NCBI GenBank assembly: GCA_026416125.1
Contig: JAOAFT010000022.1
Location: forward strand, 1-36,894
Origin: Bacteroidota bacterium
GTDB lineage: Bacteria > Bacteroidota > Ignavibacteria > UBA10030
Length of the DNA: 36,894 nucleotides
Direction of reading: 5' to 3'
A model generated the notes under the pieces. That model saw only the letters and a program-made list of their open reading frames with translations, was not told the origin of the DNA and searched no databases. This document shows positions 552 to 36,824 of the stretch, one piece after another. Position numbers and translations under genes: made by a program. Position 1 is the first letter of the stretch. Each line of letters starts with the position of its first letter.

Positions 552-1580
552 TCATCGAATATAAAATGGTGGATAACTTGAAATATCACCACGGATATAT
601 CGAGCAAGTAACTGCGCCTGAACATATGGTAATAACCCTATGGTCATTTTTTCTTCTAAGAAAGGGTGTACAATCTCTTCCTGTTTCCGCTTATGATACG
701 CTGTCAAAATTATTTTCCGGGCATTATCGTTTAAACGGACTTCGCCTGTTTCTTGTATTTCAAAATCATCACTTGTAATCTGTTTTAAATTGATAACATT
801 GAGCATAATCCGGTCACCTAAGTAAGCTCGGAACTCTTCCATAAGATCCAATGCCAAACTAGGTCTTCCTGGTCGTACTCGGTGAAGAAATCCTACATAG
901 GGATCGAGCCCGACTGTTTCAATTGCTGAACGCACATCGATAGCTAATAGCACATAAACAAACGACAATAAAGCATTGACAGGATCACGGGGTGGACGTT
1001 TCGTTCGTTTCGTAAACCGAAAATCATCTTTCTGCGTAATAATGAGTTGGGAAAGTTCACTGAAGTAGATTGAAGCGCAATCACCCTCATGACCACGGAG
1101 TTCGTCGAGTGTTTGTGCACGACTAATATCAGAAATACGATTCCCCAACATTGTTATAGCTGTACTAAGTTCAGGAGTACAATGTTCAGGATGGTTTCGT
1201 TGGTGACGTTGCAATAACGTGCGACAATTCAATACTTTCGCTGCAACGATAGGGCGTGCAATAGCGAGTGCTTGTGCCTCATCATCAGCTATTCTATACT
1301 GAGCTTTTCGGAGCAGAACATTCCCTTGTTGTGCACCCTGTACACGCGCAAGGAATCGACCATACTCTGTCAGATAACTGATTCCAACATTGTTTTCTGC
1401 GCAAAACGCCATGAGTGCTGGTGTAATTGCTTTAAACCCGAAACAGACAATATTTTCAATTGATTTGACAGGGGCTTGTAAAATTTTTTGATTATTCACC
1501 TCAACTACGAACGTTTCATGCTCCTTTCTGATATATGCATCTTCGGATGTAATGTATAACGTTGTAAGATGCTTTTTCAT
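552..1580 (-). CDS. cas1: CRISPR-associated endonuclease Cas1 (type I-C)
   Basis: This 342-residue protein is the integrase that inserts new spacers at the leader end of the array together with Cas2. The N-terminal beta domain runs to about residue 85. The C-terminal helical domain carries the metal-binding residues: E165 in RGHEGDCAS, H233 in GFLHRVRPGRPS, and D245/E248 in LALDLMEEF. All expected catalytic positions are present and the length is normal. A GAGG ribosome binding site precedes the ATG, and the gene begins 9 nt after cas4 ends. It looks fully functional. Confidence 0.97.
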   Translation of the reverse strand: MKKHLTTLYITSEDAYIRKEHETFVVEVNNQKILQAPVKSIENIVCFGFKAITPALMAFCAENNVGISYLTEYGRFLARVQGAQQGNVLLRKAQYRIADDEAQALAIARPIVAAKVLNCRTLLQRHQRNHPEHCTPELSTAITMLGNRISDISRAQTLDELRGHEGDCASIYFSELSQLIITQKDDFRFTKRTKRPPRDPVNALLSFVYVLLAIDVRSAIETVGLDPYVGFLHRVRPGRPSLALDLMEEFRAYLGDRIMLNVINLKQITSDDFEIQETGEVRLNDNARKIILTAYHKRKQEEIVHPFLEEKMTIGLLPYVQAQLLARYIRGDISSYPPFYIR

Positions 1581-1589
1581 AGCAATACC

Positions 1590-2258
1590 TCATCCTCTTT
1601 CATTATCGCTCAGCATATAGAGTTGGTGTAAATATTTTATAAGTTTTTGCTCATTCATTGCTCGTGGCATGCATATATGCTCTATGGAACAGTTCCTACA
1701 CTTCGATGTGTACTGTGATTGTGGGATGGTACCCGAAGTAAGGAGATGTCGAACATTGATGATGGTCTCTGTTGTATGACGTCGCAATTCTTCAGTAAAG
1801 GGAACTGTAACACGCCGTCGGATTTTGCCATAAAAGAACGCTCCACATTCTATTGGAATGTCAAACATTTCTTCTAAGCAAAATGCTTGAGCACAAAGCT
1901 GAACAGAATCAGAACTATCGTCCTTCGGTTCACCGACTTTGAACTCCACGGGCATGATATGCTTCGTACGGCGCACACTGCACGAAGTACCATCACTACT
2001 TTCAGCAACTACCTCCACCACATCGCATCTCCCTGCTAACCCGAACCGTTTAGAATAGATATGCAAACCGCGTACAATTTTTTTATTCCCACGTACTTCT
2101 TCTGTTTCTGTATCAACTTTCTCGTGGAAGATCTCACCGCGGACGGTATAGAGATTATCTTCCCACTCTTTCTCAGTGTAAATTAATGCACATTGACGTG
2201 GACAATAGATATAATGCTGCAGCGAGCTGATTGGTATATACTCTCCATCGAACCCCAT
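1590..2258 (-). CDS. cas4: CRISPR-associated exonuclease Cas4 (type I-C)
   Basis: This 222-residue RecB-like nuclease takes part in PAM-dependent trimming of prespacers during adaptation. Four cysteines expected to hold an iron-sulphur cluster are visible: C19 in HYIYCPRQC and C187, C190, C196 in SKCRNCSIEHIC. The RecB nuclease residues are present: H45, D79 in GRCDVVE, E105 and K107 in VEFKVGE, and a Q-rich helix around 120-124. The ATG abuts the TAA of cas7 with no spacing and has no clear ribosome binding site, so it is probably translated by coupling to cas7. Confidence 0.96.
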   Translation of the reverse strand: MGFDGEYIPISSLQHYIYCPRQCALIYTEKEWEDNLYTVRGEIFHEKVDTETEEVRGNKKIVRGLHIYSKRFGLAGRCDVVEVVAESSDGTSCSVRRTKHIMPVEFKVGEPKDDSSDSVQLCAQAFCLEEMFDIPIECGAFFYGKIRRRVTVPFTEELRRHTTETIINVRHLLTSGTIPQSQYTSKCRNCSIEHICMPRAMNEQKLIKYLHQLYMLSDNERG

Positions 2259-3110
2259 TTACTCAACAATCGCAGTTTGAGAAAATTCTTGCATAGGTTT
2301 TCCATCCAATAAAATTTCATAGTCTGTGAATTCTCGTGCTGGACCTTGCGTTGTTCTTCGATGGGAAACACGAGTAAAAAGTTCATGTGCTGGTTTGTTA
2401 CCAAGAGCTGTCTTATGTTCAAAAATTATCAGCCGACGGGCACTCATCAGTCCACGTGCAGCTGAGCGATCGTGTTCAAACATGTTCTGCAACGCTTCCC
2501 AAAAGAGATACAAGTCTTCTTGAGAAAAACCTGTTTGTGCCGCAAGGAAGGGTGACACAAAACCATGTACTCGGTAAAGACCATATGGGACTGTATACTT
2601 ACGTCCCATCTCTGAGCCACCAGATTCAGCACGTTCTTCTTTAGTTTTAGCGACACGAGTGATACTGTGTTCTAAAGCAACTATAGGTTCTACAGAACGA
2701 GCAAACGTAAGTTGAACAGGTCCACGGACTTGTCCAGCATTTTTACCTGTTGTCATTACTGCGCCGAAAACGCGTATGTCGTAGTAATTCTTGCACATCC
2801 ATTGTCTTGCTGATTCTATTTTCTCATCTTCCTTAGTTTTGCTTTTCACAGATTCGTCTTCTCTTGCTTCAGCTATCAAATTATTTAGTATTGCTTTTTC
2901 TTTCACAAAAATATCATATGGACGTTTGAACTCTCTAATAATTGCTATATAGTTCCTAACTTTTCGTTTCAAACACACATCAGTAACTACTCCTATCCCA
3001 GTTTCCGCATCAATACGAGGTAAGTTGCCAGCATCTGGATCGCCATTGGGATTACCATCCTTTACATCAAAATAGTACACGAAATCATAACGTTTTGTAA
3101 TAGTAGACAT
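2259..3110 (-). CDS. cas7c: Cas7/Csd2, type I-C Cascade backbone subunit
   Basis: This 283-residue RNA-binding protein polymerises along the crRNA to form the backbone of the type I-C effector. The N-terminus has the Csd2 signature [21 protein letters not shown] followed by [19 protein letters not shown]. Other family landmarks are [22 protein letters not shown], the [12 protein letters not shown] block and the C-terminal [16 protein letters not shown]. Length is typical. A strong AAGGAG site precedes the ATG. It lies 38 nt after cas8c. Confidence 0.97.
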
Positions 3111-3148
3111 GGCTTTGCTCCTTTCTTTGTAAATGGTTAGTATTATTT

Positions 3149-4879
3149 TTATTCACTATTTCCCTTTTTGCTTATAAAGAAATCTTGGCGTTGATGATAA
3201 TATCCGATTGCAAAATATGCTTGGTCATTCATTGTGAGATGATTCGGAAATATTGTAATGTTCCACAGAATCTCGCCAATGAGTTTTTCGAAGTTTACTC
3301 GCCTCCCAGGGTTTTCCAATTTTGCCAAATGATGATTTTTAAGTTTTAACAATTGTGAAAATACTGCTATAGGGTTTGTTGAAGCTGCACCATAAAAACG
3401 GTCACGAATTGTAGTATTTATACCTGGCTGTGCCTCTTCTTGGATTTTTTCTAAAACAGCAAATAGACGACCAAGTAAGTAACCGAGATTAGTGTTTGAT
3501 GAATCGAGTGCCATAGCAATCTCCTTTTCGTAAGGTTTATAAATACGATTAAAACGATTAATTGTTGCTTTGAGTATTGAAGCACGTGCATGTGTAACGT
3601 CACGTTTTGCACGGATGCGGCGTATACACTGATAGAGAAGCGTCATAGGATATGGTGTTCCGTCTAAAATGCTTTCAAAAACTGCAGATGCAAGGTTTGG
3701 TGGAACGTTCTCCATTTTATAATCTAATGCAGTTGAAGTAAGGATACGATAGAGTGAGAGATGTTCAGGCTCTTTTGGACCGTGGATAATTTTAAAATCT
3801 TCAAAGTGCTTAAAAATATTTACTCCAAAGTCTCTAATAGTCCCTTGGCGGAAGAATCTAATAGAGATTCGTGATGCGTTTGGTGCTAAAGCAAGCACAT
3901 AAAATCTTTCACTACTTTGCGTAAGTTTCCCAGTATTAATTGCTTCGTAAAGGCTTTTCACAGCTTCTATGTTGCGGTCAGGGTTGTCTTTATCATCGGT
4001 CAAATACCAAGGGAAAACAGACTCAAAATCGTATAGTTGTTTCGCTTTTCTTTTCTCAGCCCAAAAAACAATTGTAGCATCTCCAATGTAAACTTTGTTA
4101 TCGTTCGAATTTACCAGACTTTGAAGAGCTTTTGTATATCGAGATGCTGAAAGTTTGCAAACGGGGGCATTTAAGCTTTGCTCTTTTCCATAAGACAAGT
4201 AAGCAGAGTCATTAAATGAAATGAGATTGGCACCTGAAGATTTTGCATCTCTTATACCTTTAATCACTTTATGTGTTCGTTCAAGCGGTACGTTATTTGC
4301 TCCAGTTAATAGGCACGTACCTAAATCACTACCGGAATTTAACGCAGACTCTGCAGCCTTACGTGCATGATTTTTGCAAGCAATAGGAAATTTATCTCCT
4401 TGTATTCGAAACGTAACGATTGGTGAACCTGTGGTAATTATTTTCCCTACCTCCTTGTGTTCAAGAATTTTTTTAAACGGTTTATCTCTTTTTTGTTCAA
4501 GCTTATAGAATTTTAACACTGCCTCAACATCTTTGGGTGGTGATGGATAAAAGTGTTTAATTGTTTCAACAAACGATTTTAGTTTTATTTTCCCCTTTTT
4601 CCCAATGCCAAAAACAAATTCTGATTTATCCCACAATAGGTTTGCATCATCTCCAGCATTTGAATGTTTCTCTGACTGTTTTCCGATGTCGGGAACGTAA
4701 TAAGTTGTTCCAAAAACTCTATTACCTTCAGTTCTTTGGTGATTTTCGATATCTACAAATTCCCCATTGTTATCTATTACGACAATAAAATCTATTTCTT
4801 TTTCAATGAAACCGTCTGGTGCTATTTGATTTTGCTCTAATTTTCGTTGGTAATACTCATACAGTGCTTGCAGTATCAT
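3149..4879 (-). CDS. cas8c: Cas8c/Csd1, type I-C Cascade large subunit
   Basis: This 576-residue large subunit of the type I-C effector is thought to read the PAM and recruit Cas3. Recognition rests on overall Csd1 features: the N-terminal [11 protein letters not shown], a central [20 protein letters not shown] segment followed by [17 protein letters not shown], and the C-terminal helical part with [16 protein letters not shown]. The length is normal. Its ATG overlaps the cas5 stop as ATGA (4876-4879), and an AAGGAGG ribosome binding site lies inside the end of cas5. The two are therefore translationally coupled. Confidence 0.95.
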
Positions 4880-5631
4880 CTTAGTACCTCCTTACTAGCT
4901 ATCGGTGGAACGTGAATAACACCTTGCTCCAATTTCGCACGGAAAAACATCGGCTTTGGATTTTCTACATCAGTAAAATCCATATCGTACAACATGTAGC
5001 CGAGATCACGTGTTTCCTGAATAGGTTGTAGAGGATCATTCTCAGGATTATCCACAAGCCGAAAATGGCAACTGAATTCGCGGCACCCAAGGTACGGTTG
5101 ATTAAAACACTGGCCTTTTCGTGCTCGACGCTCAAACATCGCGAGATACTTGCCAGGTGTTTCACCATTACGTGAACGATCCATCTTTTCTTTGAAAAAT
5201 TTCAGTTCTTCTTGTATAAAGTCCTGCTCTTCTTGATCCCACAAGAACATCGGCACAGTCTGAAACGTAAGGTGTGTCCGTTTCTCCAGTGGAATGTATT
5301 CGAGCGTTGCATAGAAACGATAGTGAACATCTTTTAGTAATACACCTGCACGTTGCTGGCGATCATCTTCGATGAAAATACCATTACTCCTATCGCTCAT
5401 TCTGCTTCCTATTTCATTGCGCCGTACCGAGGTCCATTTGATTGGCTTCAATACTTCAATTTTATTTACGTGCCATCGTATCGCAGGCTTCCAAAGGATC
5501 GCTTCGAACACTGCCCGTACTGCAGAAGGTGTAGGTACGTCATAGCTAACACGTTCAACTTTCATTTCAGGACGTGTAAAACATGCGTAGTCCCCCCACA
5601 CTTCGAGACAAAAAGGTTTGTAAGGGTTCAT
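4876..5631 (-). CDS. cas5c: Cas5d, type I-C crRNA-processing endoribonuclease
   Basis: This protein is 251 residues. In type I-C systems, which lack Cas6, Cas5d cuts the pre-crRNA and then stays bound to the 5' handle. The N-terminus CLEVWGDYACFTRPEMKVERVSY and the next block DVPTPSAVRAVFEAILWKP are characteristic of Cas5 (RAMP fold). Further family blocks are LLKDVHYRFYATLE and the C-terminal YLGCREFSCHF. No cas6 is present nearby, consistent with this role. An AAGGAT site precedes the ATG. A 101-nt gap separates it from cas3, large for this operon, so an internal promoter is possible though none is clear. Confidence 0.95.
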   Translation of the reverse strand: MNPYKPFCLEVWGDYACFTRPEMKVERVSYDVPTPSAVRAVFEAILWKPAIRWHVNKIEVLKPIKWTSVRRNEIGSRMSDRSNGIFIEDDRQQRAGVLLKDVHYRFYATLEYIPLEKRTHLTFQTVPMFLWDQEEQDFIQEELKFFKEKMDRSRNGETPGKYLAMFERRARKGQCFNQPYLGCREFSCHFRLVDNPENDPLQPIQETRDLGYMLYDMDFTDVENPKPMFFRAKLEQGVIHVPPIASKEVLR

Positions 5632-5732
5632 AATATTATCCTTCTTTGTTGATGAATAGATTTATAAACACTTAAACCATTTCAGAATAATACCGTACTC
5701 TCTTAGTTTTATCATACTACATATCTGATATG

Positions 5733-8030
5733 CTATATTACACAATTCTCTAACCATTTTGTATCATCCAATTCTAAACCCAGACCTGGCTTGTACAAGC
5801 CATCACTGCTTTGTATCCAGTATCCAGCTACCTCTTGGACAAATCCCTGCTTTCGTATGTTTTCAAAAATTTTCAAATGTACGTTGACTACAAATCGTTG
5901 AAGCTTTCTTAGAAGGTTACGATTAATGTTTCCTGCCTGTAATTGCTTGATGAGTTCTTCGCTATTATTTCCATTCTTTGGATTCGTATACCATACAACA
6001 ATGCTTTGTTGTACTTCGTCGATGAGATTGAATTCCTGAGCAAACGAACGGAATGCAAAAACAAAATATGGTGCATTTTTTACAAGTCGCTCATAAAACC
6101 GTGGTTTATCCATATCATCTAATCGTGCATAAAAGTATTCAAAATATTGTTTGAATAACTGAGGTGATAGTTCGTCTACTTTATTATTTCTTAACAATTC
6201 TTTGCATGCATCTTCTTGGTATCGTAGCAAACCACGTGGTGATGGTTTTGGTGGAATGAACACAATTACTTTTCCTTTCTGGGGTAATTTGCCTTCTCGG
6301 TTACAACGACCAGCAGCTTGTGCAAGGGAATCGAAACCAGTAAGTGCTCGGTACACAACAGGGAAATCAATATCAACACCTGCTTCTACTACTTGAGTGC
6401 TAATAACGCGAATTTGTTTACCTTGTCGAAGCTTTTCTTTTATAGTGGATATAATGACACTTCGTTCTTCCCCACACATCAAGGCAGAAAGATGTATAGT
6501 GTCTTCAGGCATAAGGTTATGGAGCTCACGACAATCTTTTCGAGAGTTTACAATACAGAGTACTTGTTCGTGCTGGAGAAGTTCATCACGTACATTTTCC
6601 CAGTTCATCGGATTGGTTAGTGTTTTGGGAAAAATTATTTCTACCCTGTTATTCCATTCTCTGGCTAGTGACTCTGGATCATCAATAATAGGACGTACAT
6701 TGTGAAGTCCCTGAATAACTGTAGGTGGCCTTCCAATTGTTCCTTCAAAAAGGGGTTGCGTAGCAGTCATCATAACTACAGTAACTCCAAAGTGATCGAC
6801 AAGTCCACGTAATACCGACAGAATTGGCTTGAGATGTTCAGGTGGCAGCAACTGTACTTCATCGAGAATAATGACACTGTTTACTATATTGTGGAGTTTC
6901 CTGCACATGGATGGTGTGTTTGCAAAAAGTGACTCAAAGAGCTCAACATTTGTTGTTATGATGATTGGTGCATCCCAATTTTCACAGGCAAGACGATTCC
7001 GTGCAGTTTCTTCTCTCGGATCGATATTGCTATGATGTTCTACAACTTGGTCTTCGCCAAAGAGAACATTACCACTGTTTTTTCTCTCTATAATTTCTTC
7101 ATCGTTATCGGTACCGTATTTGAGAATTTTTGCTGTTTGTTCAATGATGCTTGTATAAGGAATAGCAATGATTATTCGACGTTTTCCAAAGTGCAACGCA
7201 TGTTCAAGTGCAAATGCCAAAGACGAGAGTGTCTTCCCACCTCCGGTTGGAACAGTGAGCGAGAAAGTTCCTGGTGGAAGTTTTGCTTTTTCGACACATA
7301 TTGTACGTATTTCTTTCCGCTTTCTGTTTATTGGTGTATCAGGTACTTGTTGTTCTTTTTGAGCTATAAAGTAATCAAAGCGTTTCTTGAGTTCATGAAG
7401 TGAAAGGTATGTGCCACGCGCCTTTGTGTGCTCAGGTTCCATAAATTCTTCAGTATCAAGAAAATCTGCGTCTACTAAACATGAGAATAGCATACGAATC
7501 CAAAGATGAAGATGTTCAAAGGATTGTTTTTCGTTTGAAATGACACACGGTTTAGTTATCGGAAGTGGACAGTTTAAAAAACTTGTTGCTGCCTCGACTG
7601 ATTGAACTAAATTGGTTGAAGTTATTTCTGAGTTCTTAAGTAATCGACATTCTAGCTCAGAGTACCAATCAGATAATCCACTGTGATGCCCTGATATTGT
7701 ATAGGCAAAAACACGTGAAGGTATTTCATTGTTACACTGCTTAACAGCTACTAATGCACCTACACCACTATGAGGTGGTTTTCCTCTTTGGCTCTCAATA
7801 TGTAGATTTTCATCTTGGTTAGCATGGGTACGGATGTACTGCTGCCAGAGTGGATGATACTTTCCAAGATCATGAAGGTAACCAATGTATTCACCCCAAT
7901 CTCTGTTACCAAATTCAGCAGCAAATGTGCCGGCAAGCTGTGCCACACGGTGGAGGTGTTCTGGAAGAGAGTGGTACACTACAACATTATTTCCAGTTTT
8001 CTTACAATGAGCCACATACTGCTCTGCCAT
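5733..8030 (-). CDS. cas3: CRISPR-associated helicase/nuclease Cas3 (HD domain N-terminal)
   Basis: This 765-residue protein is the effector that unwinds and degrades target DNA after Cascade binding. The N-terminal HD nuclease shows H25, the H53-D54 pair in GYLHDLGKYHPLW, H87, H115-H116 in SGHHSGL and D187 in LVDADF. The SF2 helicase core follows: Walker A PTGGGKT (261-267), the DEVQ box (390-393), MTATQ (421-425), STQVVEAGVDIDFP (544-557) and motif VI QAAGRCNREG (571-580). All motifs are intact. A GGGGGAG ribosome binding site precedes the ATG. It is the first cas gene, 72 nt after the acyl-CoA synthetase gene on the same strand. Confidence 0.97.
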   Translation of the reverse strand: MAEQYVAHCKKTGNNVVVYHSLPEHLHRVAQLAGTFAAEFGNRDWGEYIGYLHDLGKYHPLWQQYIRTHANQDENLHIESQRGKPPHSGVGALVAVKQCNNEIPSRVFAYTISGHHSGLSDWYSELECRLLKNSEITSTNLVQSVEAATSFLNCPLPITKPCVISNEKQSFEHLHLWIRMLFSCLVDADFLDTEEFMEPEHTKARGTYLSLHELKKRFDYFIAQKEQQVPDTPINRKRKEIRTICVEKAKLPPGTFSLTVPTGGGKTLSSLAFALEHALHFGKRRIIIAIPYTSIIEQTAKILKYGTDNDEEIIERKNSGNVLFGEDQVVEHHSNIDPREETARNRLACENWDAPIIITTNVELFESLFANTPSMCRKLHNIVNSVIILDEVQLLPPEHLKPILSVLRGLVDHFGVTVVMMTATQPLFEGTIGRPPTVIQGLHNVRPIIDDPESLAREWNNRVEIIFPKTLTNPMNWENVRDELLQHEQVLCIVNSRKDCRELHNLMPEDTIHLSALMCGEERSVIISTIKEKLRQGKQIRVISTQVVEAGVDIDFPVVYRALTGFDSLAQAAGRCNREGKLPQKGKVIVFIPPKPSPRGLLRYQEDACKELLRNNKVDELSPQLFKQYFEYFYARLDDMDKPRFYERLVKNAPYFVFAFRSFAQEFNLIDEVQQSIVVWYTNPKNGNNSEELIKQLQAGNINRNLLRKLQRFVVNVHLKIFENIRKQGFVQEVAGYWIQSSDGLYKPGLGLELDDTKWLENCVI

Positions 8031-15189: not shown

Positions 15190-16755
15190 GTGAACAACGA
15201 GTTGATCATACCAACAAAGAATAAAATCTGGGAACCCCTTTTTTTTGTAGGGATATTTCTTTCCCCACTATTCATTTTAAGTATACACTTTCAGAGCCCG
15301 ATGTTCGCTCAACAACAAAAAAAATCTGCTGTATACAAAGAACCATATCGCTTCACAGGTTTACCGCTCATCCTTTACTCAGCGTACGACGCACAAGTCG
15401 TTGAACTCTTTACACTCATTCAAGAAGCAAATGCAGGAAAAGCCCTCGCACAACATGACCTTGGAATACGCTACCTTCTTGGTAAAGGGCTTCCTGCCGA
15501 CACAACCAAAGCTGTGTATTGGCTCATGCGTGCTGCTGAAAACAAACTACCACTTGCACACTATAATCTCGGAATCCTCCATCTCCATGGAATCGGCGTT
15601 CCGTGGAATCCATTCGATGCATACAAACACTTTCAGTATGCAGCTGAGGAAGAAATTCCTGAAGCACTCTTTGCAATGGGGATTCTTACATCGGAAAACT
15701 TTATCGTGCCACGTAATTGGCCTAAAACATTCCAGTATATCAAACGAGCTGCTGAATTAGGTTACGAAGACGCACACGAAGCACTCAAAGAACTCCGCTA
15801 CCGTGGAATCGACAGCATCGAAACGAATCAACAACATTCGAGGCAGAAAAAAACACAATCCTCTTCCCTATCATCAGGAACTTTGCTCTTCCTCGACTTT
15901 TCAAGTACTGATACTACAACTATCCCACCCGATACTCTTCTCCAACGTGAAGCATACCGTGAACTTTCCTCAATACAAAAAAAATTTTCACAACCACTAC
16001 GAACAGATTCAACGTTTGTAAAACTCTTTGAACTTGCAGAGCTTGGTGTTCCTGAAGCCGTGACGTACATTGGGAGAATTTACGAAAAAGGATATGGCCA
16101 AGAGCGATCCTTGATAAAAGCTGCACTCCTTTACTTCAGGGCAATCCGACTGGAATCACTACGAGCACCTTCACTACTGTGGAACCTTATCCACACTCAA
16201 GAATTCACTAATGAGTTCGAACACTTAACAAGAATTCAAGAACCGTATGCTCTCATGCTATGGGCTGGATTAACAGCGCTTCGGTTTAGTACGCTCCTCA
16301 ACGAACAGCAAGCATTCACAATTCTCCAGCAAGCAGCCAATTCCAACTGCACACCAGCTATGACTGAATTGGGACTCTGTTACTACACCGGTCGTTGGAC
16401 AAAACAAGACAAAAACAATGCCGCATACTGGTTTAAAAACGCATCCGATCGTGGAGATCACGATGCACGTATCCGCTATGCTGTGATGGTACTGAGCAAC
16501 GAAGTTTCAAATGGAATGAGTATAGATTCAGCCCTCCACTACCTGAACACTATGACAGAACGAGGATCTCTTCTTGCTCGGAATGCATTAGCACTTTGTT
16601 ATGAACGTGGTTATACCGTCATGCAGAACAAAGGTGAAGCATACCGTTTGTATAGGCAAGCACTTGCACGAGGAAGTGAAACTGCGTATCGATCGCTCAT
16701 ACGAATGCATAATGAGATCAGACCGAATGATCCGGATTTTCAAATCAACGAATAA
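15190..16755 (+). CDS. Secreted Sel1-repeat (TPR-like) protein
   Basis: This protein is 521 residues. Residues about 14-40 form a signal peptide ending in MFA before QQQ, so it should be periplasmic or surface-exposed. Sel1-type helical repeats are clear at about 85-120 (AQHDLGIRYLLGKGLPAD), 121-156 (AHYNLGILHLHGIGVPWN) and 157-192. More follow in the second half, such as EAVTYIGRIYEKGYGQ, AMTELGLCYYTGRWTKQ, DARIRYAVMVLS and LARNALALCYERGY. Sel1 arrays generally mediate protein-protein contacts; no enzymatic domain is visible. The start is GTG at 15190. A TTG at 15202 is an alternative. It is probably co-transcribed with merR. Confidence 0.88.
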   Translation: MNNELIIPTKNKIWEPLFFVGIFLSPLFILSIHFQSPMFAQQQKKSAVYKEPYRFTGLPLILYSAYDAQVVELFTLIQEANAGKALAQHDLGIRYLLGKGLPADTTKAVYWLMRAAENKLPLAHYNLGILHLHGIGVPWNPFDAYKHFQYAAEEEIPEALFAMGILTSENFIVPRNWPKTFQYIKRAAELGYEDAHEALKELRYRGIDSIETNQQHSRQKKTQSSSLSSGTLLFLDFSSTDTTTIPPDTLLQREAYRELSSIQKKFSQPLRTDSTFVKLFELAELGVPEAVTYIGRIYEKGYGQERSLIKAALLYFRAIRLESLRAPSLLWNLIHTQEFTNEFEHLTRIQEPYALMLWAGLTALRFSTLLNEQQAFTILQQAANSNCTPAMTELGLCYYTGRWTKQDKNNAAYWFKNASDRGDHDARIRYAVMVLSNEVSNGMSIDSALHYLNTMTERGSLLARNALALCYERGYTVMQNKGEAYRLYRQALARGSETAYRSLIRMHNEIRPNDPDFQINE

Positions 16756-16766
16756 GTATTGTACAT

Positions 16767-16862
16767 ATGTTTGAATGGTATGGAACTGAAACTTCTCCGA
16801 TAGAAAAACTCTACCTAAGACTACATTCAATTTACCATTATTCACAGATATATAAACAATAA
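16767..16862 (+). CDS. Possible 31-residue ORF coupled to the next gene
   Basis: An ATG at 16767 opens a 31-codon frame (beginning MFEWYGTETSPIEK) whose TAA overlaps the ATG of the following membrane-protein gene as TAATG (16860-16864). That arrangement is typical of translational coupling. There is no clear ribosome binding site before it and no recognisable family, so it may be a chance frame in the leader of the next gene. Confidence 0.2.
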   Translation: MFEWYGTETSPIEKLYLRLHSIYHYSQIYKQ

Positions 16863-17401
16863 TGTATACTACAGAATATCCTACTAAGAGTTATACCCTT
16901 CTATACACAACAGAAGGTCCAGAGTTCATCATCCAGATACAAAAGCAGTGGTATACAATAGTTTTTATGATCTTCTGGCTTATCGGTTGGGGTATCGCAG
17001 AGTATACAGTTTTAAAAATGGCTGCTTCAAATAAAGATAGCGAACACTATGGTCTTGTTGTATGGCTTATCCTTTGGACCTTGGCAGGTGGTGTTGCACT
17101 TGTTATAGTGCTTTGGCTATTGTTTGGTACCGAACACATTGTTCTTCATCCAACGGACATAACAATTTATCACAAACTTTTCTTTTTCAAGCGTTCTCAC
17201 ACATACGATATTGCCTCTATTCGTAATCTTCGCGTAGAACAATCCATAAACGCTGAAAGTCCATCTTTCTATACTAGTCGCCAATTACAGCCAATTGCTT
17301 TCGAGTATCAAGGAAAAACTTACCGTTTCGGAAATGGTATTAGCTCCACTGATGCATCAGAAATAGTTGAGTTCTTGCGATCGCAGTACCGGTTTCCATG
17401 A
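16862..17401 (+). CDS. Membrane protein with two helices and PH-like C-terminus
   Basis: This protein is 179 residues. Two hydrophobic segments, about 30-51 (WYTIVFMIFWLIGWGIAEYTV) and 64-88 (GLVVWLILWTLAGGVALVIVLWLLF), are joined by a short hydrophilic loop. The C-terminal 90 residues read as strands: EHIVLHPTDITIYHKLFFF, SHTYDIASIRNLRVE, IAFEYQGKTYRFGNGI, then the helix SEIVEFLRSQY. This resembles bacterial PH-like membrane proteins of unknown function. I infer an inner-membrane protein with a cytoplasmic sensor or scaffold domain. No specific family is recognised. It converges on the pseudogene to its right. Confidence 0.75.
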   Translation: MYTTEYPTKSYTLLYTTEGPEFIIQIQKQWYTIVFMIFWLIGWGIAEYTVLKMAASNKDSEHYGLVVWLILWTLAGGVALVIVLWLLFGTEHIVLHPTDITIYHKLFFFKRSHTYDIASIRNLRVEQSINAESPSFYTSRQLQPIAFEYQGKTYRFGNGISSTDASEIVEFLRSQYRFP

Positions 17402-17891
17402 TGAGAGATATGGATGATGTTTTCCCAAAGCTCTCTCGTGGAATGAACGTAGGGGTACGTTTTTCATACTTTCGGTGCACATTACCAAACTTTATTTCGA
17501 GCTCTCGTAATTCAGGCGCACTAATGACGATAAAGATTGGAACTCAGATTGCAATAGGCGAGAAAGAGGGGAGTATGAATCCAACTCCCAAGACTATGAG
17601 AAAAGACCTCTGAGGATTTGATTTCTCATGAAGAGATACGTTCCACTGCAAACAAGTCTCTCCGGTGGTCAAAGACAGAGAGCGTACCATGTGCTTTTAA
17701 AAGTGATACCCAGCCCAGATTGCTAACAACAATCCCACCATTATGCTGAGCACTCCACACACCGTACTAAGAGGATGAATGAAAAAACTTTTTTGTAGTA
17801 CCCAATCAGTCTATATCGCAATGAGTCCTACGACGCATATAAATCCGAAGAAAGACTCAGTAGCACTCTTAAAATATTTTCGGGGAAATAC
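17402..17891 (-). pseudogene. Decayed isoprenylcysteine carboxyl methyltransferase-like gene
   Basis: No intact gene fits this stretch, but the minus strand holds consecutive pieces of an ICMT/phospholipid-methyltransferase-type membrane enzyme. The first piece is a membrane segment (GFICVVGLIAI, then an in-frame TAG at 17811-17813). Next comes GVLSIMVGLLLAIWAGYHF ending in TAA at 17697-17699. In a shifted frame follow a TGA (17669-17671) and PPERLVCSGTYLFMRNQ, which matches the family's PP..LV.sGpYryvRNP. Back in the first frame are LIVLGVGFILPSFSPIAI, a TGA (17544-17546), and SAPELRELEIKFGNVHRKY with EKRTPTFIPR, the typical C-terminus. The order, spacing and total length of about 150 codons fit the family. 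Two compensating frameshifts and four stops show it is dead. Confidence 0.72.
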
Positions 17892-17938
17892 TCACTTTAC
17901 GGTTTCACTCTCACAAAATATATACCTCAGTATTAAGA

Positions 17939-20900
17939 TCAATCCGTAATAAGCAAACTCCCGTAATTATTGAGCTCTCCATAGGTCTCCGTTCTACCGA
18001 ACACATGGACAACGATTCCGGTAGTAATAGTAAATCGAGCCCCGACGTCAATCACCAAGTTGTTGTTGACCATAATGTTCGATGAGGCAGTTTTCATACC
18101 AACATTTCGAAGAACGAGATCGTAGTAACTACCTGGTATTATTGTTTGATCACTAGATCCTGCATAGATCACTGTATTAGGATTTGCTGAAGCGTTTATA
18201 GAAGCTACTGTGACAGGTGAACCGTTGATCGTAAGGGATGCATTTGGTCCCTGACTCATACTCCCAATGCCTGTGAAACTCCCATTCACAGTTATAGTTC
18301 CTGTGTTCGTAATTGTCCCATTGATTTGAAGGTTATTAAATGTTGTCGTACCAACAATTGTTTTCCCTATTCCTCCTAGAACAATTGTGCTTGTTCCTGC
18401 TGTAAATAATCCGTTATCAACCCAATTTCCATTCACGGTAAATGTAACTGCACCAGAGATCGATAATGGTGTACCAGGATCTATCGTACAATTCCCGGTT
18501 GCTACAATGTTTGTACTTATTGTTTTCGTTCCTGTCCCTGTGAAGAGTAAGCTTCCATAATCAAGTGGTGTAACTATTTGTGCTGTTGGACTATAGTACT
18601 CAACGATGCTTTGCTCATCGAGATCATACGTTTCGAACGTTGGGGCACCTGCTGCGCTGCGGACGCGGAGTTTGGCATCTGCGTTAATCTGTAATTCACC
18701 TCCATCACTATCTTCTGTGAGTGTGTAGGTAGTAAGATCGAACACCCCACTCTTGATGTGTAACAAGCGAACCCCAGCTACATTCTGTGCGAGAATTGTG
18801 GTGGCACCATTTTTTTCAATAACAATTTGTGGAAGCAAGATGGGATTTAGTGTGCCACCTATTTGTGAAAGCGTTGTACCAGTAAAAATAACGCTGTGAA
18901 TCGTTGGAGTGAATGTACCATTAACACTCAAATTACCAGTCATAGAGATGTCCGAATTCAAACTAATTGAAGAACCAGTATTAATGGTAAGGTTGTTAAA
19001 GACTGCTCCACTCCCTGTTGTTATAGTTTTATTACTTCCTGTCATCGTAATGGTCGATGTCTGTCCTTTAAAGGTTCCGTTGATGTTAATCGATCCACCA
19101 ATTGAATATGTATACGCCCCCCCATTGAATGTCGCGCCTGAGGTAACATTCAAATCATTTCCTATAGTCCACCCAGCGGGGAGTGTTATACCATTAGGGT
19201 TGGTATTTGAAATTGTAAGTGTATAGATATTTGGTGACGTACCAACTATCGATAGTGCTCCTGTTCCAGCAAATTCAACAATACCTGTACTGCTAAATGC
19301 AGTAATCCCAGAAGAACTGAGGAGAACCACCGTAACAGGAATTGATGGTTCAAATTTTAAAGTACCACTGCTTGTGATTATACCATTATTTGTTAACGGG
19401 CCTTTAAATGTGTGGGTTGCCGTACCTCCAAAGAACTTCGCTCCTAACCCTACGGTGAACTCCCCATTAACTGTCCATCCCATCGTAGGAGATATACCAC
19501 TTGTATTATTAACGTTAAGATTGTTAAACGTCGGAGGGCTTGACCCAGTAAACGTTGGCGCCACAGTACCATTGAAATTCACAATTCCTGTACTGAGAAA
19601 TCCGGCATTCATTGCAATATTCTGTGTTTGGGTACCAGTAAACGTTAATATGCCTGAAGAAGATAGTGTACCATTGTTCAAGAGATTTCCTGCAATAGTC
19701 AGTGTCGTTGGTCCAGCTGTTAGTATTCCAGTTCCTGTAACTGTGAGCGTACCATTAACTGTAGTATTCGTTAAGAATGAATATGCTCCAGTTACAGTAA
19801 GATTATTAAATGTATTTGAAGAAGATCCGCCAACTGTTTTGTTTGTACCTGCAAGTTGTACTGTACCAGTCGAAGGAGTAAATGTGCCATCGTTCACCCA
19901 GTTCCCTTGGAGCGTTAGAACATATGAACTTCCGTTGAATGTACTCCCTGTTTGAATCGATACATCACCAGCGATGGTTGCAGTTCCTCCAAGCGTCGCA
20001 GTAGCACCAGCCTTACTAATGGTAAGATTACCATAACTTAGCCCTCCTCGAACAGTTTGTGCCACTGTCCCATAGTATACAACAGTACTAGTTGGTGCCA
20101 AAGAATAGGTAGAAAAATTTGCAGGGAAGTTATTTGCTCCAGAGAGTCGAAGTGTTGTAGTACCATTCATGGTGAAGGTACCACCGAGCGATGATCTATT
20201 TAACGTAAAGTCAGCAATATCGAGCGTACCACTTTGGAGTGTAAGATCGCTATTAACAATTACAGAACCAATTAAGGTAACGCTCCCTGCGGGTTTATTG
20301 ATTATAAGAGTGTTGAAGGTCGTTGCATCGATGGTCTGTGCAGATGAACCATTTACAATTACTGTCGATGTGCCTGGTACAAATGTCCCTGTTCGTATCC
20401 AATTCCCCCCAACAGAAATTGTTGAAGCATTAGCCTGAAACACTGTGGATGAACCAATAGTAACATTTCCAAGAACATTCAACTGAGCATTGAGGGCAAG
20501 TGTTCCTCCGGTTGAAAGGGTAAGTGATCCATTAACAGTAGTTTGTGCATTAACATTTGCTGTACCACTGCTTTTACTTATGACGATGTTATAGTACTGA
20601 AGGCCTGCAATACTCTGATCGAGTGTTCCATTGTAAGTTACTGTACCTGTCCCAGCTGTGAATGTGCCACCTGTGTAGACATAATTCCCTTGAAGAGTCA
20701 TTGTACCAGTGCCAAATGCAATACTTGCATTCCCACGGTGGATAAGCGTTCCGAGAATAGTTACTGAGCCACTTCCAACAACAAGGTTGATTGAATGATC
20801 TGCTGTACCATCACTTAAAACAACATCACCATTGACAGTAAGTGTTTGCGCACCAACATTGATACTATGGGTAGCATTACTGTTCCACTGGCCAGTAATT

Positions 20901-23900
20901 CCACTTGTTACCAATGAGCCTCCAGTACTTATCGTAACCGTCACAGGTTGCACACTTCCGAATACAATGTTCTTTACAGTTACAGCAGTACTTATGATAG
21001 GCTGATTTGTAAACGTTGATGTTCCGAGTTGCACAATATCATTGGACGAAGGTGGTAACGATGGCGAACCTTGAATAGCAGTCCAGTTCGCTGCTGTACT
21101 CCACGATGAACTTGTGCTTCCATTCCATTGTACTACGTTCTGGTCATCGGAAATCGTCCATCGATTGGTAATATCAGTCAAGGAACTTTGTTCCACCCAA
21201 TTATCTGTTTCATTGTTAGCTGTTTTTCCAGATACACCCCACTGCGTACCATTGTATCTCCAAAGTTGCATCGATGACTCAACATTCCCATTCAACTCAT
21301 CATCGAGATAGTGAAGTCGGAGCGTTGCTGTATAGCCACTGCCACTCACAGAAATAGCATATTGTCTATTGATTGATCCATTGAATGGAAAGTCGTTTAC
21401 AACGCCTATCGTTACTGTTACTGTCACCGATGTAACCGATCCAACTGTTGAAAATGTAACCGTGTTATATGGACTTTCGAATGCATACGCAGTCCCAACT
21501 GTAAATGTATGCGAACGTGTAATGGTGCCAATAATGTAGCCATTCCCTGTACGCGTATTGGTAATTGTAATGCTGTTCGTACCTGTGTTGATATTTCCAT
21601 TCGCAACATTCAATGTTGCAGCTGTAACATTCACTCCTACAGTGACTTTATTGGATGGGTTGCTTTTATTCACAACAAGAGTATTAAATACAGAAGGATT
21701 TGTTCCCCCGATTATAGCATCTGCTGTACCTGTTAATTGAATTGTACTCGAGCTTGCTGTAAACGAACCATTGTTTATCCAGTTTCCATGCACGGTGTGC
21801 GTGTAAGTACCGGCATTGAATGTTGTTCCACTTTCAATAGTAATGTTGCCATTGACAGTCAACGCTCCTGCAGCTGTTTTCGTATTACCATTCGCGAGTA
21901 TAAGATGATGGTATGTTGCAACAAGTACATTTTGAGCGCCTGTTCCGTTGTACGTTACTGTATTTGGAGTTCCACCATTCACCGCATCGAGTGTCCCCGA
22001 GAGGGTAAATGTTCCTCCAATCCCTAATTGAGCATTTGTCATTAATCGGAGCGTTGCCCCTGTATTAACAGTGACATTGTAGAGATTAGCTACTCCTGAT
22101 ACTTGAGATGGATTTCCCGCAAAAGTAAATGTTCCGGTAGATGCTGTAATTGTACCACCTGTAAGATGCTGACTAATGAAGACGTTCGATGTTGCTGTTA
22201 CAGTGTTTATTACTGATAGCGAACTAAGTGAAATAGTACCTCCTCCACTAATTGCACTTCCATTACCTGCCATTGTTAAGGTAGTGCCTGAAGCACCTGT
22301 GAATGAACCACTCACAGTTAAGTTACCTGTCATGGTTATAGAACTATTCATCGTAACAGAACCAGAAACAGTGAGATCATCAAGTTGAATGTTGTTGCCA
22401 CTTATTGTTCTTGTTGTCCCTGTCATTGTAATAGTACCACTTCCACCCGCAGTATGTGTGAACGTACCTGAACCTGATGTTGAAAGATTATCTGCAATCG
22501 TGAGAGATGTGTTTGCATCGACAGTAACACCTGCCCCAGTTATTGTAAGCGTATTAAAGTTATATGTACCGCTCCCACTTATCACAGCGTTTGTTCCTGC
22601 CATTGTCACAATGCCAGTATTGCCACTAAAAGTACCGGTATTCGAAAAATTTCCATTGAGTGTTATGGAGTATGTCGATGCTGAAAGAGTTCCTGACACA
22701 ATGGTAAGGTTTCCGTTAACTGTAATGTTCCCACCTAGAGTAGCTGTTTGTGTTCCCTTGGTAATCGACAAGTGATGGTACGTTGTTGGCTTAATAGTTT
22801 GTGCAGCAGTAGTACCGTTATAGTGTACTGTATTCGGATTCGCAGTAGCGTTAAGTGTACCCGTTGTTAGCAATGGTCCTGCTACATTGAGCGTTGCATT
22901 TGCTGCATTAGTCCACACACTATTTGCACCACCACCAATAATTCCACTTGCATTGGTGGATGATACAGTACCATTGTTAACAACAGTAACACCGTCATTA
23001 ATTGTCATTGCACCTGATACAGTTAGATTTGCGGTGGAAAGGATAGTTTTATTACCACTTATCGTAGAAGTTGCCGCCAATGTTCCACTTCCATTAATTG
23101 TAGTATTTACTCCAGTTAAAAGCACTGGTTCTGTCCCCGTTCCACCTAAATTCCCATTTATAAGGAGATTTCCTGCAATAGTTAGCGTACCTGCAGCATT
23201 AGCAGTTGTTACCGTTACATTACTGTTGACTGTCACATGGCCAAAAGAGATGTTAGCTGTTGGTGTTACAGTTGAGTTCCCGGTGAACGTTGTATTACTC
23301 GTTGCGTTAAGAGTAAGAGCAACAGAAGCAGTAAGATTATTTGCAAACGTTATATTCGATCCCTCAACAGTATTAAAAATGGGTGCTGCGGATAGTTGTG
23401 GACCAAAAGCGTATGTCGAATTAAAGTTGATTGTTCCAGTACTTGTAATAGAAACAGTTCCTTCACCATGGCTAAATGGAGCATTAATATTGATAGTACC
23501 AGTTGACACTGTGAGAAGAGCACTTGCTGAACTTGTCCCTGTAGAAAGTGTAGTTGTACCATTTAACGTGAGTGTACCCGAGGTTACACGTATTCGAGCG
23601 ACACGAGACGCAGTATTGTTTGCTCCTCCAATGGTTGTAGTACCCTGGACAATTGCACTTCCACCATCGATGTTCCATGACGTTGTTCTATTATTTGTAC
23701 CAGGTTGGTATATAGTGACATTGCCAGTAACTGTCAACGATGCGGTACCACTGTGCGTCAGCGATCGATTTCCCCCTCCTGCAGATGCTGGTATATTCAG
23801 ATTAACACACGAATTATTGTTCGTCATTGTCACCGCTGCAGCATTTGTTGATGTTCCAATATTCAATGTCCCAAACGCTGTTGGTGTTGTACCACCAATT

Positions 23901-24787
23901 GTCCGAGTACCAGTTATCGTCACAGGATTTGTGCCAGCGTTGAGTGTACCACCGTTATTTGTCCAATTTCCCGCAACAGTAATTGCACCTGCAAGTGTAA
24001 CAGTTCCACCTTCCAACACAATATTGCCAAATGTCATTGCTGTAGTAGGAGTTATTGTAGAAACACTAGTGAATCTGGTCGTCGAATTTGTGAGGTTGAA
24101 TGTACCGAGTGTATTCGTAACATTCGACCGAAATGTAATAGTTGCCGCTCCACTTGATGTAAATGTTGAATTTGAACCATTTTGTGTAAATGGTCCAACA
24201 AAAGTAATTGTTCCAGTGGTTACCGTTATTGCACATCCGCGTGCAGCTGATGCATTTGCACCTGCAAGTGTTGTACCCCCAACATAGAGCGTCCCTGTTC
24301 CAACACTAAAGGTGATGAGCGTTGTTGCAGCAGTGGGTTGAACTGTTAAATCTCCACTAATATTCAATGTACCACCGTTGAAAGTTATAGTCATATTGGC
24401 ACCAGCTACCTGAGGACTGAGGTTTGCACTTGCACACGAGAGGGTTACTCCTGTGTTCAAATTGATGTTATGTAAACGCGCTGTTGTTGTAATAGTATTT
24501 GTAATCGGCCCTGTAACTGTTAGGTTCGCATTAACAGTTAACGTCGTTGCTGCTGCATTCCCGTACGTAAGTGCTGCTATAGTTGTAGGAGTACTTATTG
24601 TTGGTTGATTGGTGACGGTGCCATCACCAAGAATTACCGTCGACGTCGCAGTTGGTACTCCATTCGTCCAATTTGCTGCATTCTCCCATGCTGTACTCAC
24701 TGTGCCACGCCACGAGGTTGTTTGGGCAAAAGCTACGGAACTATACACAACTCCTATACCTATCATAAAGAGCACTAATCGTTTCAT
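17939..24787 (-). CDS. Giant beta-strand-repeat surface protein (2282 aa)
   Basis: A signal peptide (residues 1-21, ending VAFA) is followed by WRGTVSTAWENAANW and a long array rich in Thr, Gly, Asn, Ser and Val. Recurrent units read V-x-Y-x-G-T-x-x-Q-x-I, then YHHLxI, a TVNGxLTI strand, then GNWxNNGTF and GTIxLTGT. At least six copies of the YNGT...Q motif are seen. Around residue 1160-1210 is a non-repeat module (LRLHYLDDELNGNVESSMQLW ... WTISDD), and at about 1220 a second WNGSTSSSWSTAANW starts a new array. The C-terminus (YGELNNYGSLLITD) has no T9SS sorting domain. It is probably a beta-helical exported adhesin or surface-layer-like protein. A GGAAAGAG site precedes the ATG, and a TACATTTG box (24819-24826, minus strand) may belong to its promoter. 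Confidence 0.9.
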   Translation of the reverse strand: MKRLVLFMIGIGVVYSSVAFAQTTSWRGTVSTAWENAANWTNGVPTATSTVILGDGTVTNQPTISTPTTIAALTYGNAAATTLTVNANLTVTGPITNTITTTARLHNINLNTGVTLSCASANLSPQVAGANMTITFNGGTLNISGDLTVQPTAATTLITFSVGTGTLYVGGTTLAGANASAARGCAITVTTGTITFVGPFTQNGSNSTFTSSGAATITFRSNVTNTLGTFNLTNSTTRFTSVSTITPTTAMTFGNIVLEGGTVTLAGAITVAGNWTNNGGTLNAGTNPVTITGTRTIGGTTPTAFGTLNIGTSTNAAAVTMTNNNSCVNLNIPASAGGGNRSLTHSGTASLTVTGNVTIYQPGTNNRTTSWNIDGGSAIVQGTTTIGGANNTASRVARIRVTSGTLTLNGTTTLSTGTSSASALLTVSTGTININAPFSHGEGTVSITSTGTINFNSTYAFGPQLSAAPIFNTVEGSNITFANNLTASVALTLNATSNTTFTGNSTVTPTANISFGHVTVNSNVTVTTANAAGTLTIAGNLLINGNLGGTGTEPVLLTGVNTTINGSGTLAATSTISGNKTILSTANLTVSGAMTINDGVTVVNNGTVSSTNASGIIGGGANSVWTNAANATLNVAGPLLTTGTLNATANPNTVHYNGTTAAQTIKPTTYHHLSITKGTQTATLGGNITVNGNLTIVSGTLSASTYSITLNGNFSNTGTFSGNTGIVTMAGTNAVISGSGTYNFNTLTITGAGVTVDANTSLTIADNLSTSGSGTFTHTAGGSGTITMTGTTRTISGNNIQLDDLTVSGSVTMNSSITMTGNLTVSGSFTGASGTTLTMAGNGSAISGGGTISLSSLSVINTVTATSNVFISQHLTGGTITASTGTFTFAGNPSQVSGVANLYNVTVNTGATLRLMTNAQLGIGGTFTLSGTLDAVNGGTPNTVTYNGTGAQNVLVATYHHLILANGNTKTAAGALTVNGNITIESGTTFNAGTYTHTVHGNWINNGSFTASSSTIQLTGTADAIIGGTNPSVFNTLVVNKSNPSNKVTVGVNVTAATLNVANGNINTGTNSITITNTRTGNGYIIGTITRSHTFTVGTAYAFESPYNTVTFSTVGSVTSVTVTVTIGVVNDFPFNGSINRQYAISVSGSGYTATLRLHYLDDELNGNVESSMQLWRYNGTQWGVSGKTANNETDNWVEQSSLTDITNRWTISDDQNVVQWNGSTSSSWSTAANWTAIQGSPSLPPSSNDIVQLGTSTFTNQPIISTAVTVKNIVFGSVQPVTVTISTGGSLVTSGITGQWNSNATHSINVGAQTLTVNGDVVLSDGTADHSINLVVGSGSVTILGTLIHRGNASIAFGTGTMTLQGNYVYTGGTFTAGTGTVTYNGTLDQSIAGLQYYNIVISKSSGTANVNAQTTVNGSLTLSTGGTLALNAQLNVLGNVTIGSSTVFQANASTISVGGNWIRTGTFVPGTSTVIVNGSSAQTIDATTFNTLIINKPAGSVTLIGSVIVNSDLTLQSGTLDIADFTLNRSSLGGTFTMNGTTTLRLSGANNFPANFSTYSLAPTSTVVYYGTVAQTVRGGLSYGNLTISKAGATATLGGTATIAGDVSIQTGSTFNGSSYVLTLQGNWVNDGTFTPSTGTVQLAGTNKTVGGSSSNTFNNLTVTGAYSFLTNTTVNGTLTVTGTGILTAGPTTLTIAGNLLNNGTLSSSGILTFTGTQTQNIAMNAGFLSTGIVNFNGTVAPTFTGSSPPTFNNLNVNNTSGISPTMGWTVNGEFTVGLGAKFFGGTATHTFKGPLTNNGIITSSGTLKFEPSIPVTVVLLSSSGITAFSSTGIVEFAGTGALSIVGTSPNIYTLTISNTNPNGITLPAGWTIGNDLNVTSGATFNGGAYTYSIGGSININGTFKGQTSTITMTGSNKTITTGSGAVFNNLTINTGSSISLNSDISMTGNLSVNGTFTPTIHSVIFTGTTLSQIGGTLNPILLPQIVIEKNGATTILAQNVAGVRLLHIKSGVFDLTTYTLTEDSDGGELQINADAKLRVRSAAGAPTFETYDLDEQSIVEYYSPTAQIVTPLDYGSLLFTGTGTKTISTNIVATGNCTIDPGTPLSISGAVTFTVNGNWVDNGLFTAGTSTIVLGGIGKTIVGTTTFNNLQINGTITNTGTITVNGSFTGIGSMSQGPNASLTINGSPVTVASINASANPNTVIYAGSSDQTIIPGSYYDLVLRNVGMKTASSNIMVNNNLVIDVGARFTITTGIVVHVFGRTETYGELNNYGSLLITD

Positions 24788-34279: not shown

Positions 34280-36271
34280 TTACTTCATGTACACCATCTT
34301 TTGAGTTCGTACTCCATCAGCACTCTCAAGTCGAGCATAGTAAATACCACTTGTTTTGAGTCTATCTCCAATGTGAATTGAATAGACTTTCCCACTCTCT
34401 GCGAAGTCATCAAAAGCTGTTGTAATTTCACGACCCAAAATATCAAAAATACGAATCAAAACTTTACCCGATGTTTTTACAGAGAAAACTATACTTGTCG
34501 TAGGGTTAAATGGGTTGGGGTAATTACTAAACATTATTGATGTTGGTACAATCTCATTGCTTCCTACTTTGACTAATGGGTTTTGAACATCACCTAATGT
34601 CCATAATGAAAATGATTGAATACCTGTTAGTGTAACAGTATTTGTAGTTGTATTCACTTCACCACCCATTAGTGTCCACGTAATACCATTATCGGTCGAG
34701 CGGAAAAGCCGTAAATTTTCTTCTGGAATTCCATTTAACTCTGACTCGGCGTAGCTAAAGACAAAAGTAGCATTTAAATTGGAATTATTTGACGGTAAGA
34801 TTTTATACCATCGAGAAATACTTTGTCTATTATTACTTGTAAATGCTGTAAAGCCTCGTTTAACAACTGTAAATCCTAAATCAGCATTCGATGTAATAAT
34901 AGCCCCTAAACTGCCCACATTAGCTGCTGCTGGAGCAACAAGCGTAGCAGTGTCAGATAATGTTCCATTACCGGATACATTTTTAAATGCGAATATCTTT
35001 CCATTAAGAGCTAAATCCCCTGACTTTAGAATTAATGCATTTGTAACAATTGTATTCTGCGACAACATTACTCCGGCATTGTTGTCAATTGTTAGATTAC
35101 TAATGCTATCAGGTAATGCAGTACCTGTTTCCTGAGTAGAAGAACCACAATAAGTGTAGAAAGCTCCTTTACTTAATACATTCTCACCCAACCCATTATC
35201 TGCTTTTCCATCACATTGGATATTTCCATTAATCCCGCTAGGATGTTTCGTCATGAATTCAGCACCGGTTTGTAGAATAAAGGTGCCTGTTCCCTTTACT
35301 ATATCTGTTTCTGTCATTAAAAGTGAAGAACCTGTTTGAACTTCAAAATTCATTGTCGACCACTTTGGTTCTTCTGTGGTTAATGTATGAATTTTATTAC
35401 CTACAAATCGAATCAACCCTTTAGGATAGGACATAGATAATGAACATTTCTTAAACACAACATTTCCTTTAACATTGAAATATGTAGGCATTGCTGCACT
35501 TCCACGAGTTAAAGCGAACCAGCATTCATTAACATTTGTACCTTCTACAATAATATCTTTATCAACATTAATTTCATATTGCTTCAAATTTGCATCAGGA
35601 CTTACATTACTGGAACCATTTGCTGCAAATTGTCCTTTATAGAGATAGATACTTCCTTTTATATCAATCGGTTCTTTGTATATAGAAGAAACAGAACCAG
35701 GAGCTGTTAAGTATATTCTACCACTAGAACCCGTTGCACGACAAATAAAATCTCCACGAATGTCATATTCCCCAGTTAAATTAAAATTTAAATTTCCTGA
35801 TTGACTTGTACAATTCCATTCTAGATTATAAAAACTTTGATTTCCATTGACCGGATTTGCATTGACAGTTATACCCTCAGAAATAACCATACAAGTTGAA
35901 CCATCTTTCCACATTGCTTTTGGAATATATGGCGTCGTTACGTTGCTCTTATAAACTGAACCACTCTCAAATATCAAACTATCTGTTGCTGTTCTTCCAA
36001 TCTTTCCTTCCATTCGTAACGTATCAAAAATAGAAACACAAACATTTACTGTGATTGAATCACCAGCTTTTATAGTAATCTTTTTTCTTCCATCAGGAGC
36101 TGAAGTTGCGTTACTCCATGCACTACCATTCCATACCTGCCATGAACTAGGGTCGCTCCAATTCCCACCTGTCGTTGAATTTGATCTGTAGTCTCCAATA
36201 TTCTGAGCAAGTATGTTTTGCTGTACTATTCCAAGTAGTACAAAAAAAATTATAATTGAATAATATCTCAT
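34280..36271 (-). CDS. T9SS type A sorting domain-containing surface protein
   Basis: This protein is 663 residues. A signal peptide (MRYYSIIIFFVLLGIVQQNILA) is followed by GGNWSDPSSWQVWNGSAW, a module also seen in the giant surface protein, and then beta-strand-rich sequence. Near the end ELNGIPEENLRLFRSTDNG to SFSLWTLGD forms a pre-sorting domain. It is followed by the T9SS type A domain: NYPNPFNPTTSIVF, GKVLIRIFDILGREI and SGIYYARLESADGVRTQKMVYMK. The cargo should be exported by the type IX system and anchored or released at the surface. The ATG at 36269-36271 is chosen for its AAGGAG site and signal peptide. The frame stays open 18 codons further upstream. Confidence 0.92.
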   Translation of the reverse strand: MRYYSIIIFFVLLGIVQQNILAQNIGDYRSNSTTGGNWSDPSSWQVWNGSAWSNATSAPDGRKKITIKAGDSITVNVCVSIFDTLRMEGKIGRTATDSLIFESGSVYKSNVTTPYIPKAMWKDGSTCMVISEGITVNANPVNGNQSFYNLEWNCTSQSGNLNFNLTGEYDIRGDFICRATGSSGRIYLTAPGSVSSIYKEPIDIKGSIYLYKGQFAANGSSNVSPDANLKQYEINVDKDIIVEGTNVNECWFALTRGSAAMPTYFNVKGNVVFKKCSLSMSYPKGLIRFVGNKIHTLTTEEPKWSTMNFEVQTGSSLLMTETDIVKGTGTFILQTGAEFMTKHPSGINGNIQCDGKADNGLGENVLSKGAFYTYCGSSTQETGTALPDSISNLTIDNNAGVMLSQNTIVTNALILKSGDLALNGKIFAFKNVSGNGTLSDTATLVAPAAANVGSLGAIITSNADLGFTVVKRGFTAFTSNNRQSISRWYKILPSNNSNLNATFVFSYAESELNGIPEENLRLFRSTDNGITWTLMGGEVNTTTNTVTLTGIQSFSLWTLGDVQNPLVKVGSNEIVPTSIMFSNYPNPFNPTTSIVFSVKTSGKVLIRIFDILGREITTAFDDFAESGKVYSIHIGDRLKTSGIYYARLESADGVRTQKMVYMK

Positions 36272-36824
36272 ATAGTTACTCCTTACAAAATTAAATGTGA
36301 TAGAATATTTAATGGAACGGGCCATGAAATAAATAAAACATCACACACGCGTACAGTAAAATTACCAACAACTAACTTAATGACGAAAAACTTTATAGTC
36401 AACTATTTTGTTTTTTTCCAGTTATACAAAAATAGAATCCTCGCATCAACAAATTAGTTATATTTACTTCACTTTAGCGTCATTTTCGTATCAATTCAGC
36501 AATTATATCCAAAGTAGCACTTCATACATTTCACATTAGCGCAAGAGTTCATACCAAATATGTTTTATGAAAGAAATATTCTTACGAAAATTATCAAACT
36601 TAATTTATCGTTATGCATAATCATTATGCTATATTAGAGAATAAAACTAACGTTACTAATAGAGAATATCCTCTACGCTATAACAATTATAGAAAACTTT
36701 TAAGGGGTAATTTACCCTGAATGTTTAAACAAAATTTGCCTGTGACGATTCATAATAAAAATACCTAAACATCTCCATGTTAATAATTTTCAAATACTTA
36801 AAATATCCTTGCACACAAATTCCA
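36272..36824. other. Long AT-rich intergenic region
   Basis: No gene is seen in this stretch. It should contain the promoter of the leftward T9SS cargo gene; a TATTTTTG box (36427-36434, minus) is a weak candidate. Palindromes include TTATGCATAA (36611-36620) overlapping GCATAA-TCA-TTATGC (36615-36629). A direct repeat TAGAGAATA occurs at 36635-36643 and 36660-36668, and a short inverted repeat GGGTA/TACCC lies near 36705-36717. These may be operator-like sites. Confidence 0.35.

Follow-up and report, generated by a model that had tools for sequence, protein, structure and literature searches.

Small multi-pass membrane methyltransferases of the families PF04191 (PEMT, phospholipid methyltransferase) and PF04140 (ICMT), annotated in bacteria as 'isoprenylcysteine carboxylmethyltransferase family protein', share a series of membrane segments, an LV.sG.Y..mRN core and an E..LE.kFG...Y.....P.fiPR C-terminus. 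The characterised members use S-adenosylmethionine on membrane-bound lipid or prenylated substrates. Remnants of genes are also known from gaps without annotated genes, and the Pseudofinder report gives 238 and 305 of them in two genomes (PMC9336565). In Salmonella, young pseudogenes are reported to be rapidly removed (PMC2916853).

The window analysed here is the whole 36,894-nucleotide stretch of contig JAOAFT010000022.1 (assembly GCA_026416125.1, Bacteroidota bacterium). On its minus strand, at about 17421-17891, lies what is almost certainly a pseudogene of a small multi-pass ICMT/PEMT-type (PF04191/PF04140) membrane methyltransferase. The membrane segments, the core and the C-terminus of the family are recognisable there in the family order, whereas two stops, three frame switches in the best-fitting map, the lack of a Pfam match and an NCBIfam score below the cut-off set the remnant apart from intact members. 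Like the Pseudofinder-type remnants it lies in a gene-less gap and was found by translated search, and it shows no difference in kind from them.

Position and reading frames of the remnant

A preliminary description had proposed a buried ICMT-like ruin between two convergent genes, with a membrane start and a C-terminus in one frame and the core motif in a shifted one. Reading the gap in all frames bore this out: every claimed peptide is present on the minus strand in the claimed order, GVLSIMVGLLLAIWAGYHF is in the same frame as ELRELEIKFGN..TPTFIPR, and PPERLVCSGTYLFMRNQ sits in a shifted one. The ORF list likewise gives convergent flanks, 16862-17401 on the plus strand and 17939-24787 on the minus strand. 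The features are as follows.

17700..17891, minus strand: membrane part of the N-terminus, in the first minus frame and interrupted by a stop at 17813-17811
17669..17700, minus strand: short piece LKAHGTLSVFD, third minus frame, aligned with G-T-.-.P-[FW]-[DN]-P in the closest subfamily
17597..17668, minus strand: core motif piece PPERLVCSGTYLFMRN, shifted frame
17615..17624, minus strand: 5-base unit in two tandem copies at the RN[P] motif, within the interval of the frame return
17418..17606, minus strand: C-terminal part, first frame regained, with an in-frame stop at 17546-17544 and ending in ELRELEIKFGN..TPTFIPR
17398..17613, plus strand: spurious ORF of 71 aa, antisense on the remnant

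The remnant has no single open reading frame, its minus strand being interrupted by stops and frame switches, and in the composite search it matches itself with stops inside. Of the core motif G.Y...R[HN]P it reads GTYLFMRN, with the frame broken at P, and the C-terminal motif E.....FG..Y..Y....P.fiPR is kept with H at the first Y. Upstream the remnant reaches past the GVLS... start, at least to 17879-17891. The start of the gene was not located, the first 27 profile positions being without a match at most settings, and the large surface-protein gene ends at 17939. Scans of 17300-18100 for promoter-like and terminator-like signals gave no result. A structured RNA in 16700-18200 was ruled out, as no Rfam family matched.

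Homology to the ICMT/PEMT-type family

Homology was assessed with two profiles. The broad profile was built from 29 intact PF04191-derived proteins (29 fetched loci besides the own one) and the genome's own copy L001, its members being picked by PF04191 and by iteration from L001 and not by likeness to the composite reading of the pieces; a further profile whose proteins had been picked by such likeness is circular and was left out of the evidence. Against the first minus frame as it stands, with stops read as X, it gave 27.9 bits (E 6e-10 among six frames), against the core-motif frame 3.2 bits and against the plus frames at most -0.3. In a frameshift-tolerant alignment the minus strand scored 59.5 and the plus strand 16.7, while 400 dinucleotide shuffles averaged 13.6 and peaked at 24.2, and 120 other tiles of the window, on both strands, reached at most 18.7; none of the 400 or of the 120 attained 59.5.

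The subfamily profile, which comprises 32 proteins and has L059 as its seed, was aligned with the DNA at ten different penalty settings; as L059 had itself been found with the composite, the choice of this profile is not fully independent. At a switch penalty of -6 it scored 68.4 on the minus strand and 14.2 on the plus strand, which like the 16.7 of the broad profile is background level. The best of 500 shuffles reached 22.4 and the best of 120 window tiles 20.8 (0/500 and 0/120 at 68.4), and the score fell to 35.8 when no frame switches were permitted. The subfamily of L059/L148 and L046 is the best-fitting of the profiles tried, its 68.4 and the 59.5 of the broad profile coming from different profiles and being only roughly comparable. 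L059 and L046 carry G-R-G-[TS]-L-A-P-W-N-P ahead of the core motif and the subfamily accounts for the third-frame piece, but L059 has only 31% identity to the composite. The likeness runs along most of the length of the family, and over its conserved half it is beyond chance. Profile scores, shuffles and tiles therefore uphold the proposed methyltransferase ruin, with a revised list of lesions.

Searches of genomes point the same way. The C-terminal piece 17418-17543 (42 residues) found, in 61 genomes and at E <=0.001, its own place and three relatives, the three hits in relatives all lying in ORFs of ICMT type with EERELEIRFGASY.EYKSRTP.LFPR; at E up to 1 it had matches in 31 of the 61, many of them probably chance. 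The composite matched proteins in 71 of 150 genomes, its own included, with about 24-36% identity among the matches given loci, and in a wider draw of the phylum it had matches at E <=1e-7 in 3 of 395 genomes, again with its own among them. A match to ICMT/PEMT proteins in the two minus-strand frames, on which the preliminary description had staked its reading, is thus found with family proteins and with profiles. The Pfam search that it had recommended gave nothing: neither the pieces nor the composite matched PEMT, ICMT or any other family. The NCBIfam model isopcys_mtase matched the composite over 14-155 of 160 residues (E 6.9e-5), its 22.8 bits being far below the cut-off of 160 bits. As the intact relatives L004 and L001 themselves obtain only 27 and 29.8 bits with this model, the low score is due to the subfamily as much as to decay. 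No solved structure was found by sequence.

Lesions and alternative explanations

The preliminary description listed in-frame stops at 17811, 17697, 17669 and 17544 together with two nearly cancelling frameshifts. All four stops are present, those at 17811, 17697 and 17544 in the first minus frame and that at 17669 in the shifted frame, and the net frame change is zero. Nevertheless, the subfamily profile is better fitted by three frame switches with two stops in frame than by the four stops and two shifts first listed. In this map all three minus frames are used, the only in-frame stops are those ending at 17811 and 17544, and the switches lie near 17700, near 17668 and within 17624-17603. 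At penalties of -8, -6 and -4 the path follows the first frame to about 17700, the third to about 17669 and the core-motif frame from 17668, and regains the first frame from 17603. The stops at 17697 and 17669 would then be by-products of the switches and so need not be part of the reading. Penalties of -2 and -3 introduced many switches and were over-fitted, and with -4 and a heavier stop penalty two further switches appeared at the N-terminal end, upstream of 17891. The three-switch map depends on the subfamily profile, because the path of the broad profile has two switches and keeps the stop at 17697, as in the first reading. Both alignments put the last switch at 17608-17603; since the 5-base tandem repeat at 17624-17615 lies at the broken RN[P] motif, the switch is probably located there rather than at 17603.

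Homology to intact genes combined with disabling stops and frame changes is what marks the stretch as a pseudogene. The minus strand almost certainly once held a gene for a small ICMT/PEMT-type methyltransferase that spanned the membrane several times and would have acted, with S-adenosylmethionine, on a lipid or prenylated substrate bound to the membrane. In all likelihood this gene lost its function and picked up no fewer than two stop codons and three indels that change the frame, one of them probably the 5-base tandem duplication, but was not deleted. Most likely no working enzyme is made from the remnant today, and it would be unexpressed and evolving neutrally.

Three other explanations were weighed. 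Indel errors are common in runs such as TTTTAAAA, and one of the frame switches falls at that very run in an assembly of 77 contigs, so that a live gene might look broken through assembly or sequencing errors. Any one lesion taken singly could be such an error. Together, however, errors would have to account for two stop codons and three frame switches within 470 bases, next to long ORFs (15190-16755 and 17939-24787) that are open throughout, which makes this explanation very improbable. It is harder still to believe in a living gene expressed by programmed frameshifting and stop readthrough: the zero net frame change over the switches and the well-kept C-terminal motif would suit it, but expression would have to get past two stops as well as three switches, the RNP motif is broken, and such an arrangement is not seen at this site in any relative, no copy at all having been found there (0/14 regions).

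Equally hard to credit is a real small plus-strand gene of 71 aa at 17398-17613 beside which the minus-strand likeness would be incidental, for although this ORF is open with an ATG start it has no Pfam or NCBIfam match, and the minus-strand homology is far above shuffles. It matches 2 of 150 genomes, one of them its own, and its sole other relative (G054:C110:39186-39302, plus strand) is the opposite strand of an ICMT gene that matches the remnant at G054:C110:39197-39298, minus strand. The conserved non-homologous plus-strand gene that would have spoken against the preliminary description was sought among the 150 genomes and not found; with no family and its only relative antisense to an ICMT gene it can be ruled out, and by sequence comparison the ORF is a shadow of the pseudogene. 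The annotation of the gap is corrected accordingly, as the wreck of a gene would otherwise be left blank or replaced by a false plus-strand ORF.

Family copies, site history and neighbouring genes

The genome assembly amounts to 2.41 Mb in 77 contigs and is 98.65% complete. Its one intact PF04191 gene, L001, lies on another contig (C33, 1405-1980). L001 resembles the NCBIfam model LmtA_Leptospira, a lipid A methyltransferase, at 53.4 bits, below the cut-off of 325. The likeness is to the Leptospira lipid A 1-phosphate methyltransferase, and the ORFs near L001 are presumably lipid A synthesis genes. Given this resemblance of the own intact copy, membership of the family reveals little about the substrate, and ICMT is used here as a family label only, carrying no substrate assignment.

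Copies of PF04191 number 1 to 9 per genome and occur in all 32 genomes examined from the taxonomic family, so that the loss of one copy, which the remnant documents for this lineage, is unremarkable. The remnant is a case of ordinary gene loss, real but unsurprising, of a kind common in gaps where it is sought, and it opens no long-standing question. A search of the own genome for a second copy of the remnant DNA gave one match only, and a second copy was accordingly rejected. Plasmid transfer was considered and ruled out, the one distant match, of 29% identity, lying on a Rhodopseudomonas plasmid and being annotated as the same family.

The Sel1-repeat gene (15190-16755) occurs in 45 of 61 genomes, and a scan of named genomes with its protein gave two distant loci, one in an Ignavibacteriales MAG and one in a Bacteroidetes MAG. 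At E 1e-3 the composite had no match in the Sel1-gene regions (0/14, that is 12 cut regions and the two named loci, some of them short at contig ends, so that an intact copy may lie further off). The 179-residue membrane-type protein encoded at 16862-17401 (plus strand) has no relative in 60 other genomes and no family above cut-off. With such a neighbour and no match in the Sel1 regions, the site looks lineage-specific. Since no intact copy was found at the corresponding place in relatives, the intact ancestor at this site is itself an inference.

On the other side the remnant adjoins the gene at 17939-24787 (minus strand), which encodes a 2282-residue repetitive surface-type protein; about 48 bases separate the end of this ORF from the start of the remnant. 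No T9SS tail was matched in the last 250 residues of this protein, unlike the product of 34280-36325, which has one (TIGR04183). The 3' end of the gene, beside the remnant, may be missing. That a single rearrangement cut both neighbours, depriving the methyltransferase of its N-terminus and the surface protein of its secretion tail, seems unlikely; if it did, the surface protein would be a truncated product that has lost its anchoring.

In the remainder of the window no direct repeats of at least 20 bases were found in 1-700, and a CRISPR array, if there is any, therefore probably lies outside the window. According to PADLOC models, the minus strand at 552-8030 encodes a type I-C CRISPR-Cas set made up of Cas1c, Cas4c, Cas7c, Cas8c, Cas5c and Cas3c.
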